DNA of 64,000 nucleotides from Longimicrobiales bacterium (GTDB taxonomy: Bacteria; Gemmatimonadota; Gemmatimonadetes; Longimicrobiales; Gaopeijiaceae), in NCBI GenBank assembly GCA_958295645.1, contig OY282361.1:890927-954926 (forward strand). Direction: 5' to 3'. Of this stretch, positions 44,856 through 55,266 are shown in pieces (position 1 is the first letter of the stretch; every line of letters begins with the position of its first letter). Position numbers and translations under genes: made by a program. The notes below the pieces were generated by a model. The model was not told where the DNA came from, made no database searches, and was given only the letters and a program-made list of their open reading frames with translations.

Positions 44856-45606
44856 TCAGCGTTCGACCAACTTGACCCGGGCGAGGACAAGCTGCGGGGA
44901 GTCGTAGCGGTCGTCTATGCCGTACAACAGGATTCGGTCGCCTTCGAAGTGGGCTTCGGCTCCCCAGCGTCTCCCTTCGTGGCCTTCCTCGAAGACGACG
45001 GGCGTCGCTTCCGAGTTCGGCGGATCGAGCACGTAGCCGATGACTCCTGCCATGGCCGCCCTCACGAACAGGCGCCCGTCGGCAAGCGGCTGGAGGCTTC
45101 TTGCCGACGTCCCTCCCAGCACGACCGCGGGTCCACCGAACGCTTCCACGAGTTCGGCGTGCTCTTGAAGTTCCTTTGACCGCGCAGGCTCCGGAAGAAA
45201 GTTTGCGTGGAGCAATGTGCCGTCGGGCGCGTAGCTGAGCAGGGCCAGACTGGGACCGTCGAACACATGGACGGCGCCGTCTGGGGTGACTGCGACCAGA
45301 TTGGTACGATAAACGAAGACGCCCTCGTAGTTGGTTCGGAAGGAAGTGCAGGTTGTGGTCGAAGAGGACCAGCCGGTTGTTCCCTGCGTCGGCGATCAGG
45401 TAGCCTTGCTCGGTTGGTTCGGCGTCGGGGGTTGCAAATAACACGTCCTCGCCCAGATCGGGCGCCTGGACGATGACTTCGCCGATCTCGAAGGCGAACG
45501 GGCTCTCGGCGAAGTAGCCGAGTTCGGGGCCGGGAACATCGGATTCGGCATTTGGTCCGCAGGCACCCACTACTGCCAGCAACGCCAACGGCTTCGGAGG
45601 CTTCAT
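44856..45606 (-). pseudogene. Deleted and frameshifted beta-propeller lipoprotein (paralogue of 40122-41162)
   Basis: The N-terminal part from the ATG at 45606 (leader with GACGP, then YFAESPFAFEIGE and GYLIADAGNNRLVLFD) matches residues 1-83 of the intact copy. The C-terminal part from about 45345, in another frame (TSFRTNYEGVF, then TNLVAVTPDG, LSYAPDGTLL, ending ARVKLVER), matches its last 165 or so residues. About 95 codons between them are gone and the frame is shifted, so the loss is about 284-286 bp. The two halves cannot make one protein. Confidence 0.85.
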
Positions 45607-47660: not shown

Positions 47661-47816
47661 TTGACCGCTGGACATCGCATTCCTCCCGACGTAGCTTCTC
47701 CAAGGAGCACCTCCTCGGAGGTAGCGCGGAAGCTGGACGCCATTGCGCGCGTAGCGGAGGAAGCGAAGCAGTCGGCCCGCGCCCTTGAGCACCGCGCCGA
47801 GGAAGCCCGCCCATGA
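47661..47816 (+). CDS. Possible small coupled ORF upstream of the FkbH-like gene
   Basis: A 51-residue frame, TTG start, whose TGA overlaps the ATG of the next gene (ATGA). The C-terminal two thirds are a charged helix (ARKLDAIARVAEEAKQ) that could coil. The overlap fits the coupling style of this genome, but nothing else supports it; it could be chance. Confidence 0.3.
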   Translation: MTAGHRIPPDVASPRSTSSEVARKLDAIARVAEEAKQSARALEHRAEEARP

Positions 47817-49765
47817 GCCCCGCTACCTTGTCCGCCGAGCCGACCACCGACTGGAGCGCGTACTTCCGGGAAGTTGCCCGCCAAGGTGCCGACCAACCTT
47901 CGTACGCCCGTTGCGTCGAGGCGTACCGTCGGAGTACCGAAGCACCCAACGCCGTGCCGGGCTTCATGTCGATGCGGATTGCGATCTTGCGCAACGCGAC
48001 GGTGGAGCCGTGGCTTCCCGAACTCTTCATGGCTCTTCTGCAACGGGGCATCAAGGCGTCGTTTCACGTGGGCGACTACTCCGCCTACGAACAGTACGTC
48101 GCCGACTCGTCCGGGCTAGGCGATCGCAGGCCGGACTACGTGTTCCTGTACTTCGACCCGGCAGAGCTGGCCGGCGACGCCCGCCACGATCCTCCCGCCG
48201 ACATGACGGAGGCTCTTCTGGCTCGCATCGAAGGGATCGTGCAGGGTCTGCTGGACGCCACCGGTGCCGGTTTGGTCGTCGCCAACCTGCCTCCCGGTCT
48301 GGCGGAGGCGCACTCGCTTCGCGGGGATCAGGACCCTGGGAGCTGGCATCAGCGTCGGCGCGCGGTGAACCTGGGGCTGGTCGAGCGTCTCTCCGCGAGC
48401 CCGCGAACGGCGATTCTGGACCTGGACCGGGTCGTCGGCGAGTACGGCCGATCGAAAGCGTACGACCTGCGCATGGCCTTTCTGGCCCGCAGCCCATTCT
48501 CGGCCGGCTTCCTTCCCTGCTTCGCCGACGCCTTTGCGGAGATCGTGGCCGTCGCCGCGCTCCCTCCCAAGAAGTGCGTGGTGGTGGATTGCGACAACAC
48601 GCTCTGGGGCGGCGTGCTGGGCGAAGACGGGCCGAATCGGGTCGCGATCGGCACCGAGTACCCGGGAAGCGCGTACCGGGAGTTTCAGTTCTTCCTCAAG
48701 GGACTGGGGCGGCAAGGCTTCCTGCTGGCGATGAACAGCAAGAACAACGAAGCCGACGTGCTGACGTTCATGGCCGAGTCGCCGGAGATGGCACTGCGCG
48801 AAAGAGATTTTGCGGCTCGTCGCGTCAACTGGAGCGACAAGGCGTCGAACATTGAGGAGATTGCCGACGAACTCAACATCGGCCTCGACTCGCTGATCTT
48901 CATCGACGACAGCCCGGTGGAATGCGAACGGGTGCGAACGGCCTTCCCGGAGGTCCAAGTTGAGCAGTTCCCGTCGGACCCGCTGGCGATTCCCTCCTTC
49001 ATGGCTTCGTTGCGCGGCACGGCGCGGCTTCACGTCACGGAAGACGACCTCAAGCGCACTGCCTCCATCCGTGCCAACGCCCAGCGGGAGCGGCTCCGTA
49101 GCACGGCCCCGGACATCGACGCCTTCATCCGCAACCTCCAGATCAAGCTGACGATCACCCGGCAAGATCGAAGCACGGTGCACCGCGTCAGCCAGCTCAC
49201 GCAGCGGACGAACCAGTTCAACCTTGCGACCAAGCGCTACGCAGTCAGCGACGTCGAGCGCCTCATGGACGCCGGCGTCGTCTACGCCATGCGCATGAAG
49301 GATCGGTTCTCCGACTACGGCGTGGTGGGGGTGGCGATCGCGACCCCTCGCGGTGACAAGCCGGCGGCAACCGGGGGGAACCAGCCAGCGGCGACCGGGG
49401 AACAGTCGGCGGAGACCGGCGAAGAGTGGGAGATCGACTCGTTCTTGATGAGCTGCCGGGCCTTTGGTCGCAAGATCGAGAGCGAACTACTGCGCACCAT
49501 GCTCCACGACTTGGCGAGGAGCGGTGCGCGGGTCGTCCGCGCGAATCGCGTCGCCACTCCCAAGAACGGGATGACTCGCGACTTCTATTCCCAGCACGGT
49601 TTTTCGGAGACGCCGGGCAGCGGCCATTCAGGTTACTGGATCGACCCGAGGGACGCAGGTCGGCACGACCCCGTTGATCACTTCTACAAGAGGGTCACTC
49701 TGATCGGCTTCGCAGCCACAGAACCGCAACGCTCCCAGGCGCCCCGATCAGCTCGAACGCGGTGA
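47813..49765 (+). CDS. FkbH-like HAD-IIIC family protein
   Basis: 650 residues. The N-terminal domain (about 40-235) is SGNH-like, as in FkbH proteins. The HAD-IIIC domain (about 250-390) has VVDCDNTLWGGVLGEDG and the later LIFIDDSPVE. The C-terminal region (about 420-640) is GNAT-like. FkbH enzymes dephosphorylate 1,3-bisphosphoglycerate and load glyceroyl on an acyl carrier protein; a lone ACP gene lies at 52038-52274. A 7-residue repeat, (K/Q)PAATG-like, interrupts the C-terminal domain near 516-537. The 3' end overlaps the opposing flippase-like gene by 71 bp. Confidence 0.85.
   Translation: MSPATLSAEPTTDWSAYFREVARQGADQPSYARCVEAYRRSTEAPNAVPGFMSMRIAILRNATVEPWLPELFMALLQRGIKASFHVGDYSAYEQYVADSSGLGDRRPDYVFLYFDPAELAGDARHDPPADMTEALLARIEGIVQGLLDATGAGLVVANLPPGLAEAHSLRGDQDPGSWHQRRRAVNLGLVERLSASPRTAILDLDRVVGEYGRSKAYDLRMAFLARSPFSAGFLPCFADAFAEIVAVAALPPKKCVVVDCDNTLWGGVLGEDGPNRVAIGTEYPGSAYREFQFFLKGLGRQGFLLAMNSKNNEADVLTFMAESPEMALRERDFAARRVNWSDKASNIEEIADELNIGLDSLIFIDDSPVECERVRTAFPEVQVEQFPSDPLAIPSFMASLRGTARLHVTEDDLKRTASIRANAQRERLRSTAPDIDAFIRNLQIKLTITRQDRSTVHRVSQLTQRTNQFNLATKRYAVSDVERLMDAGVVYAMRMKDRFSDYGVVGVAIATPRGDKPAATGGNQPAATGEQSAETGEEWEIDSFLMSCRAFGRKIESELLRTMLHDLARSGARVVRANRVATPKNGMTRDFYSQHGFSETPGSGHSGYWIDPRDAGRHDPVDHFYKRVTLIGFAATEPQRSQAPRSARTR
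49358..49423 (+). repeat. Three short in-frame repeats in the FkbH-like gene
   Basis: Units of 21-24 bp encode KPAATGGN, QPAATGE and QSAETGE in succession, forming a low-complexity loop in the C-terminal domain. Confidence 0.7.
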
Positions 49766-50666
49766 TCCACGTGCGCTGGGCGACTGCCAGGACGATGCTC
49801 GCGACGGTGCCGAGGACCGGCTCCAGCATGGCGACCATCGACGCCTCTCGGACGCCCACGCCCGCAGGCGCGAACACGGCTAGGTAGCCCGCCAAGTAGG
49901 CGCTGGCAAAGATCGTCGCGAAAAAGAAGAAGGAGCCGTCCGCTCCGATGCTCTTGGCGAACAGGAAGAACGCGAGTCCGTAGACCAGCCACTTAGCGGC
50001 GAACGCGGCAATCCACGGCAGCAGCGCAAGACCGGCCACCGATCCCGAGTCGAACTCGGCCTCCGTCCCCCGTCGTCGGTGGAGCAGCCGAAGCACCCAC
50101 GCCAGCGCCGCCTGCACCCGTCCGTGTCGCGCCACGCCGGCCACGATCAGCAGAAGGGCCACGCCAACCGCCCCGGCAACCCGCGGCGAGACCCCCGACA
50201 GCTGTAGCACGGCCCAGCCGCCTAGGATCGCTGCCCCCAGCAAGTGCATCAGCTGAGCAAGCACCGTTGCCGCGACCGCGACGGGAGCCGGGCAGCGCGC
50301 CCTCTCGGCCAGAGCCGCCGCGCCGACGATGTGCAGCACCTTGCCGGGCACGTACCGTCCGAAGTTCGCCAAGACGAGGGTCGCGGCGGCGGTCGGCGTC
50401 GGAACATGCGGTCCCCCTAAGCGGACGACGAGCTTCGACCACAGCCAAGCGCCAAGGGCGAGTTCGCCGAACAGCGCTGCGAAAGACGACAGAAGAAGCA
50501 CCCCATCCACCTCCGCCGGCGTCCAGTCGATCGATCGGAGCGCAGCCAGCTGAACGCCGACGCTCTGCAGGACGAACCAAGTGACCAGCCCGGTCAGCGC
50601 CAGCTTCGCAACCAAGACACCGTACTTGGCCCACGCTGGTCTCTCGTCCTTTGCCAAGGCCGACAT
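49695..50666 (-). CDS. UPF0104-like (LPG-synthase TM) flippase family membrane protein
   Basis: 323 residues, about eight hydrophobic helices. Family-like text is seen in NFGRYVPGKVLHIVGA and FAPAGVGVREASMVAML. Last of a minus-strand set with hexapeptide transferase, deacetylase, ACP and YfhO-like genes. Such proteins accompany surface-lipid or glycan loci. It begins at ATG 50666, 6 bp after the hexapeptide gene's stop. Its 3' end runs into the opposing FkbH-like gene. Confidence 0.8.
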   Translation of the reverse strand: MSALAKDERPAWAKYGVLVAKLALTGLVTWFVLQSVGVQLAALRSIDWTPAEVDGVLLLSSFAALFGELALGAWLWSKLVVRLGGPHVPTPTAAATLVLANFGRYVPGKVLHIVGAAALAERARCPAPVAVAATVLAQLMHLLGAAILGGWAVLQLSGVSPRVAGAVGVALLLIVAGVARHGRVQAALAWVLRLLHRRRGTEAEFDSGSVAGLALLPWIAAFAAKWLVYGLAFFLFAKSIGADGSFFFFATIFASAYLAGYLAVFAPAGVGVREASMVAMLEPVLGTVASIVLAVAQRTWITAFELIGAPGSVAVLWLRSRSE

Positions 50667-50672
50667 CTTCGC

Positions 50673-51167
50673 CTACGTCGGCGCGTCCGCTTCTCGGGAT
50701 CCGGCCGCCTGCCTGGACCCGCGTCCGGCTCCGTCCTCGACGGAGGGCGGCCGACGAACCATCATCACGCGGCCCGGCACGCCGATCACGACCCCGTAGG
50801 GCGGAACGTCGGCCGCGACCAGCGTATTGGCGGCCACGGTGGCCATGCGCCCAACGCGAACGCCCGGCAGGATCGTCGCCTTGGCGCCGATATAGGCGTC
50901 GTCCTCAATGACTACGGCACTGCTCTTCCGAATGCCGTACGCCTCCTCAAGACGGGAGTTGACTGCCGTCACGTCGGCCAGGATCGACACGGCGTTCGCG
51001 ATCGTGACTCGCGATCCGATCGTGATCAAGTCGGCCCGTGTGACCTGCAGATTGCGGTCGATGGTGGTCAGCGACCCCACCCTCATGCCCGACGCCCTGT
51101 ACAAAGCCGCCCGCCAGCCCAGCGGAAACGGAAGCATCGAAGCCAAGTAGCGCAACAGCCTACCCAT
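50673..51167 (-). CDS. Hexapeptide-repeat acyltransferase
   Basis: 164 residues with the left-handed beta-helix pattern of O-acetyl/acyltransferases: GMRVGSLTTIDRNLQV, ITIGSRVTIANAVSI, VVIEDDAYIGAKATILPGV and VVAADVPPYGVVIGVPGR. It probably acylates a sugar in the surface polymer made by this cluster; donor and acceptor are unknown. The ATG at 51167 overlaps the deacetylase end by 8 bp. Confidence 0.85.
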   Translation of the reverse strand: MGRLLRYLASMLPFPLGWRAALYRASGMRVGSLTTIDRNLQVTRADLITIGSRVTIANAVSILADVTAVNSRLEEAYGIRKSSAVVIEDDAYIGAKATILPGVRVGRMATVAANTLVAADVPPYGVVIGVPGRVMMVRRPPSVEDGAGRGSRQAAGSREADAPT

Positions 51168-52035
51168 GTCGGCGCCTCCATCGCTCCAGGTACTCGGCGA
51201 CGGTCACAATGTCGTATTCGCCCTCGACGCACTGGATGATCTTGTCCAACACCGCGTCGTGGACGCCCTCCACGTAGGGGTGGCCGTACATGAGCGCAAA
51301 TCGACGGCCGCGTATCTGCGCTACCGCCTCGTCAACGATGCGATCTGCGGCGTGTCCGTGGGCAAGCCCTTGCTCCACGACCGGCACACGGTCCCGGCCC
51401 GTCACGTTGACGGGCACCTGATAGTGACGATACTGCGCGCCGTTCGCGTTCTCGGGCCGGAAGGGCTGGTCGCCCGTCATGTCGCCGGCATACGCGAAGC
51501 CCTCTCGGTCCAGCAAATCGAGCACGTCTTCGTTCCACTCGAAGCCTGGGCTGGCGAAGCCTTCCGGTCGGCCGTAGCGACCGGCGAACTCCTCGAAAGC
51601 GGGACGAAAGAGATACTCCAGCTGGTCGGCGTCGAGTCGATGAACGCCGCGCTGCCATGTCGCGTGATTGACGCCTCCGTGAAGTCCCAGCTCGTGTTCG
51701 TCGGCGTGGAGGGCGTCGATCTCCTGTCGATACCTTCGACCCAGATGGGGGTTGAGTGCGATCGTTTCCAGCAGGCCCCGCCAGCGCAGCTTCCGGGCAG
51801 TGGGCAGAGCGTTGCGTCGAGCGGAGCTCCTGTCGCGAGTCGGCGGCGACGTCCATCGGGCCCAGCGTTGGCGCAGGGTCGAACCCAAGTCGAAGGTGCG
51901 ACCGAACGTCACGAAGAAGGTGAACGGCACGCCTCTCCTGCTTGCCACGTCGCGGAGGCGCGGCACCCCGTGCCGCAGGCACTGCACCGAGTCCACGTCG
52001 AAGCGAAACGCCAGCACGCCTTTGCTCGACTCCAC
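51160..52035 (-). CDS. Polysaccharide deacetylase family protein
   Basis: NodB/CE4-type fold, 291 residues. The N-terminal metal Asp is in FRFDVDSVQCL, the second motif is LGLHGGVNHAT (His pair), then FASPGFEWNEDVLDLL and the C-terminal LMYGHPYVEG. It resembles the ArnD-like branch, which removes formyl or acetyl groups from lipid-linked sugars. GTG start at 52035, 2 bp after the ACP stop; the open frame to 52323 is a shadow. Confidence 0.85.
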   Translation of the reverse strand: MESSKGVLAFRFDVDSVQCLRHGVPRLRDVASRRGVPFTFFVTFGRTFDLGSTLRQRWARWTSPPTRDRSSARRNALPTARKLRWRGLLETIALNPHLGRRYRQEIDALHADEHELGLHGGVNHATWQRGVHRLDADQLEYLFRPAFEEFAGRYGRPEGFASPGFEWNEDVLDLLDREGFAYAGDMTGDQPFRPENANGAQYRHYQVPVNVTGRDRVPVVEQGLAHGHAADRIVDEAVAQIRGRRFALMYGHPYVEGVHDAVLDKIIQCVEGEYDIVTVAEYLERWRRRHG

Positions 52036-52037
52036 CG

Positions 52038-52274
52038 TTAGGGAATCTTGCTTTCCACCAGCGTCTCCATGGCCTCGAAGGACCAAGCGTCCGACACCTC
52101 CTCCGGCGTCAGCGCAATGGAGAATTCCTGTTCCACCGCCAAGATAAGGGTAATGTGGTCGATGGAGTCCCACTGGCCGTGAGTCCGCTCCGACATGGAG
52201 CGCACGTCGGCGTCCGCGGGAAGACCGAAGACGCGACGAAAGGTCTGTTCCAGCTTCGACGACACGTCGCTCAT
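52038..52274 (-). CDS. Acyl carrier protein
   Basis: 78 residues, four-helix carrier. The phosphopantetheine serine is in WDSIDHITLI (about residues 35-44). The rest is typical: LEQTFRRVFGL, then VEQEFSIALTPEEVSD. It is a stand-alone carrier in a surface-glycan cluster, not beside fatty-acid genes, so it is unlikely to be the main AcpP. The ATG overlaps the stop of the YfhO-like gene. Confidence 0.88.
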   Translation of the reverse strand: MSDVSSKLEQTFRRVFGLPADADVRSMSERTHGQWDSIDHITLILAVEQEFSIALTPEEVSDAWSFEAMETLVESKIP

Positions 52275-54862
52275 GGGGAATCGCTGGGTTTAGGGTTCGA
52301 CCGACCGCGCCGGCGACGTGCACGAGCCAGCGACGGGACCATCAGCATGAGCCCGACCAGGAGGACCGAAGCCGCGCTCACCCGTAGTGCGCGCGCCACC
52401 GTAGGCGCCGTGTAGCGCAGGGCGACCACGTGTTCGCCTGGCGACGGCAACTCCACCCCCTGGAGCGTCAGGTTCACTCGGTGGACTTCGACCGGCGCGC
52501 CGTCGACTTCTGCCACCCAGCCGGGAAACCAGTTGTCGGAGACGATCAGCAGTCCAGGGCGGCTGGTGGTCACCCGCAACCGCCGGTAGTCCTCCTCGGC
52601 CGCTTCCCAGACGACCGCGCCGGCCGCTGGAGCTTCCGCTTCCCCGCCCCAACGCACCGCCAGCGCCTCGGCAAGCTCCGACGCCGGACGGGCGACCACC
52701 GCCTCCCGAGCCGGGTCGAAGTCGGGGGACAGTATCCGCGCCAGCGCGGCATCGTCGTCGTCCACCAAAGTCGCCGACCCTGCCACCCACGCTCGCTCCA
52801 GACCAGGGTACTCGTAGACGGCTTCGGCGCCTCCTGCGGCAGTGCTGAGTGCCTGGGCACCTTCGTAGGGAACTCGTCCCGCCCGCCCCAGAGACCAGAC
52901 CACGTACTTGACGTTGAGCATCCGCAGGATGTTGGGGTGAGTGGTGTTCTGCCCGGACGACTGGCTACCCTCCAGGCCCAGGAGCTGCCGGTAGCGCACC
53001 AGATCGTTGGGATGGTGCCCGCCGAGCAAGTCCTGCCCGTGCATTGCGTACTCCACGTTCTGGACGTCCCCTCGCATGTCGGCGACTCGGAAGGGCGGAG
53101 AGCTCGCCTTCTGGTCGGCCAGGAAGCGGGCGTTGGCGTCGGGGGCGGCCCAGGCGTGGAAGTCGAAGTTGCCGACGAAGGCGCGGTCGATCCGCCCCAA
53201 GTCCAGTGCGATCAAGCCTGCCGCGACGACCGCCGCCGTGGTCGCGGACACGATCCCTTCCAGCCTCGCCCACAGCATGGCAACCGCCGCTCCCGCCAGC
53301 ACGAGCGCGATCCCGAATCCCCGGGTAGCGAAGGGCTCCAGCTTGGCCAGCGCCGCCGAGACCCGCGCGTCGGCCCCGGCGGCCGGATGCAGGACGGTCG
53401 TCCAGAAGCGTTCCAGCGCACCGGAGGACTGGAGGACCAACCCGATCAGCAGTAGCCCGAGGACCCCCAGCAACGCGCGCCCTCGAGCACTCGCGAGGAA
53501 CGCGCCCGGCGACGGCTTCGCGCGCGCGAAGTCGTCTACGCCAACGGCAAGGAGGGTGGTGGCACCGAAGCTGACCAGGAACGCCGCCAGCGACGGGGCG
53601 CGGAAGAGGGAAATCCCCGGCACCACCTCGTAGAACAACCGCCAGACCGGCGTGTGGGCGCCAAGCGCAAAGAGAAGCCAGGTCAGGCTCATTCCCGCCA
53701 TGAACCAGCGAAGGCCCGCCGATGCGCCCCCGGCTTGCGCGCCAGGGTCGAGTCGCGTCCCGCCTCTTCGTCCCTCGCGGGACCTGCACCCAGATCGCGC
53801 CCACGCCCCCAGCAGCGCGAAGAGCGCCAGAACCAGAACTGTGACGCCCACGTACTCGTGGTTGAGCTTGACCGCGTTGCGGCCCCAGTAGGTGCCGGAG
53901 CCCCAGTCGGCGGCGGCGGCGCTGTTCCCGACGAACTCTGGGACGACCAGGGCTACAGCCTCTTCGGGGTGAAGGGACCACGAGCTGGAGTAGGCGCGGG
54001 CTTCCTCGGACGAGGCGGCCGCCGTGGTCGCCGTCCTCCGCGACGCCTCGACCACGTAGCTGGCTGCCGGAAGCAACTGGACCGCCGCCAGCCCCCCGCC
54101 GAGAAGCGCGCTCCCCAGGAAGACCGCCGCGGGATGGAAGCGTCGAGCACCCGTTGCCCCCTTCCGCCACTGCTGGACCGTGCGGAAGACCACGTAAGCG
54201 GCCACCGAGCCGAAGAGGAAGTACGCCGTCTGGAACTGGGTCGTGAGGCTCGTCAGCGCCACGGCGCCGGCCAGTGCCGCCCCCGTTCGCCCCGACGGCC
54301 GGCGCATCACCGACTCGGTCGCCCAGAAGACCAGCGGAGCCAGCGCCGCCACCATCATCTTGCCGTCGTTACCGGGCAAAACCAGCGTCACGATCGCCGG
54401 CGCCAAAAGCCACGCCAGCCCCGCCACCGTCGCCCCGTGGCGGCCCAGCCCCAGCTTGCGGACCCATCCGTGCATGAAGAAGCCGCCGGCCAGCACGTGC
54501 AACACCAGCTTCCACCCTAGCGCGCGATAGGTATCGGTGACGAAGTAGAGAAGGCTGGTGGGGTAGATCGCGTCCCCCCCCGAAAGCGACTCGACGAACG
54601 GCATTCCCCCGTACATCCGCGTGCCCCACAGGGGGAAATCGCCCGCCGCCAGCCGTTCGACGAAGTACGCCCGGGCCATGTAGCCCCCCGCCTGGATCGT
54701 GTCGAGGCCGTAGAGCATGGCGTCGGAGAAGATGAACTCGGCGAAGAGGACCACCGTCGCCGCCACGTAGAGCGTACCCGGTAGCCACCAGGAGAGCGGC
54801 CGGGCCTGGAAGCGGGCGTTTCGAGCCTTGGACTTGGCTTTTCGCGAGCGGGTGCTAGCCAT
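52271..54862 (-). CDS. YfhO-like multi-pass membrane protein
   Basis: 863 residues with about a dozen hydrophobic helices in the first two thirds, then a soluble extracytoplasmic domain and a final helix. It has the YfhO-family pattern: DTIQAGGYMARAYF, LWGTRMYGGMPFVESL, GISLFRAPSLAAFLVSFG, MLNVKYVV, SDNWFPGWVAEVDG. YfhO is a GT-C-like protein linked to glycosylation of teichoic acids in Bacillus; here it would add or transfer sugars outside the membrane. The ATG at 54862 is preferred; the frame upstream to 55129 is a shadow. Confidence 0.85.
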   Translation of the reverse strand: MASTRSRKAKSKARNARFQARPLSWWLPGTLYVAATVVLFAEFIFSDAMLYGLDTIQAGGYMARAYFVERLAAGDFPLWGTRMYGGMPFVESLSGGDAIYPTSLLYFVTDTYRALGWKLVLHVLAGGFFMHGWVRKLGLGRHGATVAGLAWLLAPAIVTLVLPGNDGKMMVAALAPLVFWATESVMRRPSGRTGAALAGAVALTSLTTQFQTAYFLFGSVAAYVVFRTVQQWRKGATGARRFHPAAVFLGSALLGGGLAAVQLLPAASYVVEASRRTATTAAASSEEARAYSSSWSLHPEEAVALVVPEFVGNSAAAADWGSGTYWGRNAVKLNHEYVGVTVLVLALFALLGAWARSGCRSREGRRGGTRLDPGAQAGGASAGLRWFMAGMSLTWLLFALGAHTPVWRLFYEVVPGISLFRAPSLAAFLVSFGATTLLAVGVDDFARAKPSPGAFLASARGRALLGVLGLLLIGLVLQSSGALERFWTTVLHPAAGADARVSAALAKLEPFATRGFGIALVLAGAAVAMLWARLEGIVSATTAAVVAAGLIALDLGRIDRAFVGNFDFHAWAAPDANARFLADQKASSPPFRVADMRGDVQNVEYAMHGQDLLGGHHPNDLVRYRQLLGLEGSQSSGQNTTHPNILRMLNVKYVVWSLGRAGRVPYEGAQALSTAAGGAEAVYEYPGLERAWVAGSATLVDDDDAALARILSPDFDPAREAVVARPASELAEALAVRWGGEAEAPAAGAVVWEAAEEDYRRLRVTTSRPGLLIVSDNWFPGWVAEVDGAPVEVHRVNLTLQGVELPSPGEHVVALRYTAPTVARALRVSAASVLLVGLMLMVPSLARARRRRGRSNPKPSDSP

Positions 54863-55150
54863 GGACTGAAGATGGCGACGGGAGGTCGAGAATCTCAAGG
54901 AGGCCGCGGTGGATGCTCTTCCAGGGCGGCCCCAGGTCGACGGCGCGGGCCTGCACTCGGAACCCCTCCAGGCGAACTTCGGCGGACAAGGGCTCGTCCA
55001 CCTGCGGATACAGCAGGATGCCCTCGTGCTGCGCTCCGTGGGGCTTGGTGGCCTGCCGGTTCCGCAGGTACGTGAGCAACTGGTACAGGTTGCCGGACTC
55101 AAGGTGCGACCGGCGCGCGCCAGTGTCAAGCGGCCACCCGGGCCGTGTCA
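54855..55150 (-). pseudogene. C-terminal remnant of an McrC restriction-component gene
   Basis: The frame ending at 54855 reads HLESGNLYQLLTYLRN, HEGILLYPQ and AVDLGPPWKSIHRGLLEIL. These match the end of the McrC (McrBC) family. The upstream two thirds of mcrC, including most of its nuclease domain, are absent, and prs starts on the other strand at 55267. It has no proper start and is read as debris. Apart from this, the 404-bp space before prs holds nothing recognisable but a 9-bp repeat. Confidence 0.7.
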
Positions 55151-55217
55151 AAACCAAGGTAGAAATGCCGGAGGTAGGCAAGGCGCCGGGCGCCCATTGA
55201 CGCCCACGCCGTAGGTC

Positions 55218-55226
55218 GCCAACTTC
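55218..55226 (+). repeat. Right copy of the 9-bp direct repeat
   Basis: GCCAACTTC, identical to the sequence across the 3' end of tRNA-Gln at 40096-40104, 40 bp before prs. Confidence 0.3.
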
Positions 55227-55266
55227 AAGGGCTTTCTCGCGACTGCGTTTCCGCCCAACGCCGGCC

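Follow-up and report, generated by a model that had tools for sequence, protein, structure and literature searches.

An FkbH-acyl carrier protein-deacetylase-hexapeptide cassette joined to a conserved YfhO envelope operon in Longimicrobiales: a candidate N-acyl exchange module

The stretch of DNA analysed here (64,000 nucleotides in full, hereafter the window) comes from a Longimicrobiales bacterium of the phylum Gemmatimonadota (contig OY282361.1, positions 890,927 to 954,926) and is part of a single-contig genome of 2.9 Mb (G000). A sequence-only reading had placed six genes between window positions 47813 and 54862, coding for an FkbH-like protein, a stand-alone acyl carrier protein (ACP), a polysaccharide deacetylase, a hexapeptide acyltransferase, a flippase-like UPF0104 protein and a YfhO-like membrane protein, and had proposed that together they make glyceroyl-ACP and decorate a surface glycan with it. 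All six genes were found there, intact (Table 1). Five lie on the minus strand in the order YfhO, ACP, deacetylase, hexapeptide protein and UPF0104, and since they overlap or are separated by at most six bases, they form one operon; it is headed by YfhO, whose gene shares a 4-base overlap with that of the ACP. The FkbH gene, on the plus strand, converges on this operon, its tail overlapping the UPF0104 gene by 71 bases.

Table 1. Features of the cassette locus and related features of other genomes. Positions refer to the window unless another locus (L number) is named; aa, amino acids.
Feature	Position	Strand	Remarks
FkbH-like protein	47813-49765	+	650 aa; FkbH_N, HAD-IIIC and GNAT-like C-terminal domains
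UPF0104/LPG_synthase_TM membrane protein, predicted flippase	49695-50666	-	323 aa; PF03706 54.4 bits (cut-off 33.4)
Left-handed beta-helix (hexapeptide) acyltransferase-like protein	50673-51167	-	164 aa; PF00132 at cut-off
ArnD-like N-deacetylase/deformylase (NodB fold)	51160-52035	-	291 aa; GTG start; PDB profile and Foldseek match to ArnD
Stand-alone ACP	52038-52274	-	78 aa; predicted phosphopantetheine Ser37; PF00550 19.3 bits
YfhO-family membrane protein, predicted GT-C-type transferase	52271-54862	-	863 aa; PF09586 35.7 bits (cut-off 28.5)
Intergenic region between the divergent YfhO operon and prs	54863-55266		Probable operon promoter region, judged by position only
Deacetylase and Formyl_trans_N pair, genus g7	L160 6691-8375; L161 2604-4273		In the YfhO core operon, flanked by WecB and GT4
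MaoC-type hydratase gene	L051-L059; L063, L064, L101, L107, L115		Beside FkbH-ACP pairs in several phyla; upstream of FkbH in L051-L059

Each protein was searched against 146 genomes of the same order, with FkbH orthologues counted at >50% identity and the deacetylase count taken as the top group (two distant matches in genus g7 were left out). The FkbH protein, the deacetylase and the hexapeptide protein are confined to one and the same set of 12 genomes, and the ACP adjoins FkbH. Ten of these genomes belong to one genus, whose other 13 sampled members are without all three; under independence of the genomes, an assumption that does not hold, such concordance within the genus would arise by chance with a probability of ~1e-6. 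The co-occurrence is not due to chance, and the three proteins, with the ACP beside FkbH, constitute an accessory cassette. In this genus, the sister genus g2, the four genes are collinear and run in one direction, with YfhO divergent beside them. YfhO, by contrast, is present in 135 of the 146 genomes and as such is a core gene of the order, which excludes a six-gene unit of equal partners. Of the co-occurrence suspected among all six families, the part linking FkbH, deacetylase and hexapeptide protein thus stands, while that involving YfhO does not.

Genomes free of the cassette share the gene order LptB-RpoN-GT2-WecB-GT4-YfhO-UPF0104-GT2 (GT, glycosyltransferase), which is also found in another family of the order. 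YfhO, UPF0104 and an ArnC/DPM1-like glycosyltransferase are members of this conserved envelope operon; YfhO and UPF0104 predate the cassette and represent the pre-existing transferase and flippase of the core operon, not members of the cassette. The cassette has been inserted into this operon repeatedly. In genus g2 it sits between GT4 and YfhO, with GT4, cassette and UPF0104 as neighbours, and in the window between YfhO and UPF0104. The closest YfhO relative of the window (79% identity, genome G072) lacks the cassette, and its YfhO and UPF0104 genes are directly adjacent. The remainder of the core operon (RpoN, GT2, WecB, GT4, DPM1-like GT2 and proline dehydrogenase) lies intact 75 kb away in the genome under study, where GT4 adjoins the DPM1-like GT2 at the site at which YfhO and UPF0104 would be expected. 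The YfhO tree implies that the cassette was gained or lost three times or more, and cassette and YfhO/UPF0104 are joined in at least two different arrangements, which we take to be the best indication that they share a pathway. The genes around the cassette that the earlier list did not contain are GT2, WecB, GT4 and MaoC. WecB scores above its cut-off and suggests that the sugar is N-acetylmannosamine (ManNAc) or N-acetylglucosamine (GlcNAc); for the core-operon GT2, ArnC, PpgS and AglJ are among the best models, all of them below the curated cut-offs.

The deacetylase is the component on which the proposed mechanism hinges. A profile built from nine orthologues and compared with all solved structures gave one significant match, ArnD (8t0j, E 6e-11), and the same structure is the best Foldseek match (E 2e-14) of the AlphaFold model (predicted local distance difference test, pLDDT, 82.5). 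The DxD and H..H motifs are conserved and common to ArnD and the deacetylases of Gemmatimonadota arn-type operons; neither a transmembrane segment nor a signal peptide is seen in the sequence. Identity with ArnD in the strict sense is ruled out by the NCBIfam equivalog PRK15394 (58.8 bits against a cut-off of 382), and the enzyme is therefore termed ArnD-like. The broader assignment as a polysaccharide deacetylase is to be narrowed; the specific likeness of this NodB-type protein to ArnD suggests that a lipid-linked sugar is first N-deacetylated and then re-acylated.

As an internal control, the same profile finds the deacetylases in apparent arn operons of other Gemmatimonadota. Loci of this kind in family f5 (L199 5296-9201, L200 6534-10442 and L202), named arn-type by resemblance only, hold GT2, formyltransferase-like, decarboxylase-like and ArnD-like genes. 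In two genomes of genus g7, a related deacetylase is paired with a Formyl_trans_N protein within the YfhO operon, the solved relatives of the latter including ArnA and other sugar formyltransferases (ArnA/VioF-type). A deacetylase with a formyl donor and a deacetylase with an ACP-borne acyl donor look like two versions of N-acyl exchange. A third clade of ArnD-like deacetylases, in families f4 and f7 (L191-L198), lies between GT4 and WecB, with no FkbH, ACP or YfhO nearby. Two cassette deacetylase genes are in two frames, in L037 (11508-12403, G069) and L038 (2486-3374, a second cassette copy in G125), and are either pseudogenes or assembly errors.

The FkbH assignment is firm (TIGR01686, 268 bits, cut-off 147, E 8e-80), and the FkbH_N domain (PF21211) is likewise above its cut-off. 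Residues D259 and D261 of the HAD-IIIC DxDNT motif and C548 of the SCRAFGR motif are invariant in 13 orthologues, one relative carrying G at the residue between the two aspartates; C548, in the C-terminal domain, is presumably the acyl-enzyme residue of FkbH. In the window protein alone among the 13, the GNAT-like domain carries a low-complexity insert, GDKPAATGGNQPAATGEQSAETGEE, at about residues 512-537. The gene is the single FkbH of the genome. The cassette ACP lies just under the PF00550 cut-off of 20.8 bits, and its phosphopantetheine serine is part of the sequence WDSID, of which WDS is invariant in 12 orthologues. The only PF00550 match in the genome-wide search is the fatty-acid ACP beside FabF, and the cassette ACP represents a dedicated second ACP of the genome. 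An FkbH protein with a stand-alone ACP makes glyceryl-ACP in tetronate and methoxymalonyl pathways (PMC7489565).

The hexapeptide protein shows the left-handed beta-helix repeats PF00132 and PF14602 at cut-off, and its nearest solved relatives are acetyltransferases (E 7e-13); its AlphaFold model is poor (pLDDT 61). In several genomes a Methyltransf_24 gene adjoins it. The UPF0104 protein has seven hydrophobic segments and belongs to a family predicted to act as flippases (PMC5898192, PMC12713373), whereas GtrA/GtcA or Wzx flippases are not found in the operon, where UPF0104 takes their place; GtrA was searched for in the operon and not elsewhere in the genome. In YfhO, D54 in the first loop is invariant in 29 homologues, and the family is regarded as predicted GT-C transferases of three-component systems (PMC8035078). 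The context of membrane export that the sequence-only reading had seen in these genes is thereby supported.

With this in mind, we tentatively favour a role of the cassette as an N-acyl exchange module on a multi-component transmembrane glycosylation pathway, Arn-like with swapped acyl chemistry. The ArnC/DPM1-like GT2 of the distant core operon would load an N-acetylated amino sugar onto polyprenyl phosphate, and the ArnD-like deacetylase would strip its N-acetyl group on the cytosolic side. FkbH would dephosphorylate 1,3-bisphosphoglycerate and place the glyceroyl group on the dedicated ACP, from which the acyl group would pass to the free amine through the hexapeptide protein or, with lower probability, through the GNAT-like domain of FkbH. 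The lipid-linked sugar would then be flipped by UPF0104 and moved by YfhO to an acceptor in the envelope. Gene content, operon structure, co-occurrence, insertion points and the ArnD-type fold are observed here, and the model assigns to them the chemical steps and their order, the acyl group, sugar, lipid carrier and acceptor by inference. Precedents are offered by the YfhO three-component systems (PMC8035078), by the operons gpgSDF and hexSDF with their glycosyltransferase, deacetylase and UPF0104 genes, by ACP-borne N-acyl donors used with a PglD-like transferase (PMC6519341) and by glyceroyl groups on Bacteroidota O-glycans (PMC12871550).

A wider proposal, which we regard as possible and hold with less confidence, is that Gemmatimonadota have interchangeable N-acyl modules on one conserved transmembrane glycosylation pathway, namely an ArnD-type deacetylase combined either with a formyltransferase or with the FkbH-ACP-hexapeptide set, the second bringing a glyceroyl thioester derived from 1,3-bisphosphoglycerate onto a lipid-linked amino sugar. 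We know of no earlier route by which such a thioester reaches a lipid-linked amino sugar.

Several observations weigh against the N-acyl exchange model. The FkbH gene of the window is on the strand opposite to the operon, and in genome G043 the FkbH-ACP-deacetylase-hexapeptide set stands alone, away from YfhO. The LacA-type catalytic histidine is not kept in the hexapeptide protein, in which LacA His115 aligns with an invariant Thr67. In f4, the related deacetylase occurs without FkbH, so another lipid-linked or nucleotide sugar may be its substrate. Furthermore, all relatives are metagenome bins; the named nearest ones are labelled Gemmatimonadota, and most presumably come from sponges. The MaoC genes near FkbH and the glycolipid operons of other bacteria, both discussed below, point the same way.

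Regarding the acyl group, most g2 genomes have a MaoC-type gene immediately before FkbH, and other phyla have one next to FkbH-ACP pairs; none was found in the genome under study, so that the product may differ or may not be glyceroyl. We consider it somewhat unlikely, albeit by no means negligible, that another short acyl group, or one processed further (by MaoC hydration/dehydration, for instance), is attached by N- or O-acylation, an option compatible both with the proposed exchange on a polyprenyl-linked sugar and with the glycolipid alternative treated next. The Methyltransf_24 gene next to the hexapeptide gene would also fit further processing. Yet the absence of MaoC here, which rules it out as an obligatory part for this genome, goes along with retention of FkbH, ACP, deacetylase and hexapeptide protein, and the known product of FkbH with a stand-alone ACP is glyceryl-ACP.

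The main competing explanation for the pathway as a whole is that the cassette remodels a membrane glycolipid, an N-acetylhexosamine (HexNAc) on phosphatidylglycerol or diacylglycerol, instead of a polyprenyl-phosphate sugar. GT4 would make the HexNAc-lipid, the deacetylase free the amine, FkbH, ACP and hexapeptide protein acylate it, and UPF0104 flip it, while YfhO would have a separate job. In P. aeruginosa and C. difficile, amino-sugar lipids have been shown to arise from the joint action of a glycosyltransferase, a deacetylase and a UPF0104 protein with no polyprenyl carrier (the GpgSDF/HexSDF operons); moreover, GT4 is next to the insertion site in g2 and next to the deacetylase in f4, and UPF0104 lies within the window operon. 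We nevertheless judge this explanation unlikely: ArnD, the closest match to the deacetylase, acts on an undecaprenyl-linked substrate; the window operon begins with YfhO, whose gene overlaps that of the ACP; and the same core operon includes an ArnC-like GT2.

Less probable still is a cytosolic modification of a nucleotide sugar or a lipid A-type intermediate, for which the association with YfhO and UPF0104 would be positional only. Such a role is consistent with the isolated cassette of G043, with LptB in the core operon and with the prediction that a similar PglD-like, ACP-dependent acyltransferase works on a nucleotide sugar (PMC6519341). However, no nucleotide-sugar deacetylase is among the matches of the deacetylase, ArnD works after transfer to the lipid (PMC12748117), and the YfhO operon shows two different insertions as well as a version with a formyltransferase.

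FkbH enzymes have been described in antibiotic pathways, the setting of the best-studied ones, but service of FkbH and ACP to a secondary metabolite (a tetronate or methoxymalonyl unit) with unrelated neighbours is very improbable, since the genome's sole full-length ketosynthase lies next to the fatty-acid ACP, other canonical ACPs are absent, no dehydrogenase or FabH-like partner adjoins FkbH, and the genome profile of FkbH equals that of the deacetylase exactly. Three additional ketosynthase matches are short and weak. No polyketide synthase was found in the whole genome, which bears out the earlier statement that polyketide genes are lacking and led us to reject a polyketide/tetronate origin.

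Compared with described systems, the proposed pathway resembles the Arn pathway (ArnA/B/C/D/EF/T, 4-amino-4-deoxy-L-arabinose, L-Ara4N, on lipid A) in its GT2 presumed to act on polyprenyl phosphate, its NodB-type N-acyl removal, its small flippase and its GT-C transferase, ArnD being nearest to the cassette deacetylase in both sequence and fold. It differs in that the Ara4N synthesis genes (ArnA decarboxylase, ArnB) are absent from the cassette neighbourhoods, whereas they are present, by sequence resemblance, next to the f5 ArnD-type genes; in that the amine is apparently re-acylated from an ACP; and in that UPF0104 and YfhO stand in place of ArnEF and ArnT. In CsbB-GtcA-YfhO systems, too, YfhO is the predicted GT-C transferase; it works there with a flippase and a GT-A synthase of polyprenyl-phosphate sugars, a role for which the core-operon GT2 is the candidate here. 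The known systems add an unmodified sugar (GlcNAc, Gal or Glc; table of PMC8035078), whereas the present set is extended by genes for deacylation and acyl loading, with UPF0104 in the place of the flippase. The GpgSDF/HexSDF operons share a glycosyltransferase, a polysaccharide-deacetylase-type enzyme and a UPF0104/MprF-like flippase, but end at the free amine and are without FkbH, ACP and acyltransferase; GpgD is COG3233 and not reported to be ArnD-like, and whereas those genes form a single operon, the window has deacetylase and UPF0104 in one operon with GT4 75 kb off. Glycerate-utilisation modules (tetronate, methoxymalonyl) also combine an FkbH-family member with a stand-alone ACP of its own, but their ketosynthase, FabH-like and dehydrogenase partners are replaced here by a deacetylase, flippase and GT-C context. 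Finally, the O-antigen R-group genes of Flavobacterium psychrophilum (ACP wfpD and PglD-like transferase wfpG) comprise a dedicated ACP and a hexapeptide-type transferase predicted to acylate an amino sugar; in that system, ketoacyl synthases build the acyl chain, which goes onto UDP-Qui2NAc4N, whereas here the acyl group would be FkbH-loaded and the amine would stem from deacetylation of a lipid-linked sugar.

Each part thus resembles something known, and what is new is the combination, a multi-component transmembrane glycosylation with Arn-like sugar remodelling. In agreement with the sequence-only reading, no described system with this set was found in the literature on FkbH/O-antigen, HAD-IIIC/polysaccharide and FkbH-like/capsule, a search whose coverage leaves out most subscription journals.

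Beyond the order, among the 80 best FkbH loci covered by the analysis, the full set was not found outside Gemmatimonadota: in 68 other FkbH loci, the flanks hold no match to YfhO or UPF0104 and no convincing match to the deacetylase (one at 20 bits), and an ACP is present in most. In most loci from L066 to L130 (Bacteroidales, Acidobacteria, Planctomycetota and others), a long-form FkbH is directly followed by an ACP gene, frequently with hexapeptide or GT2 genes in the vicinity. Loci that look like glycan gene clusters carry such long-form FkbH-ACP pairs in many phyla, and for Bacteroidota O-glycans the stage at which glyceroyl-type modifications are added is unknown (PMC12871550). As a compact and genetically clean set, the cassette offers a small, testable system for glyceroyl-on-glycan chemistry; it suggests a general design in which the N-acyl group of a sugar is swapped after loading on a lipid carrier, and yields predictions on the substrates of YfhO and UPF0104 in a phylum of which few members are cultured.

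Elsewhere in the window, two overlapping frames on the minus strand (44856-45606) look like one propeller-type protein split by a frameshift.

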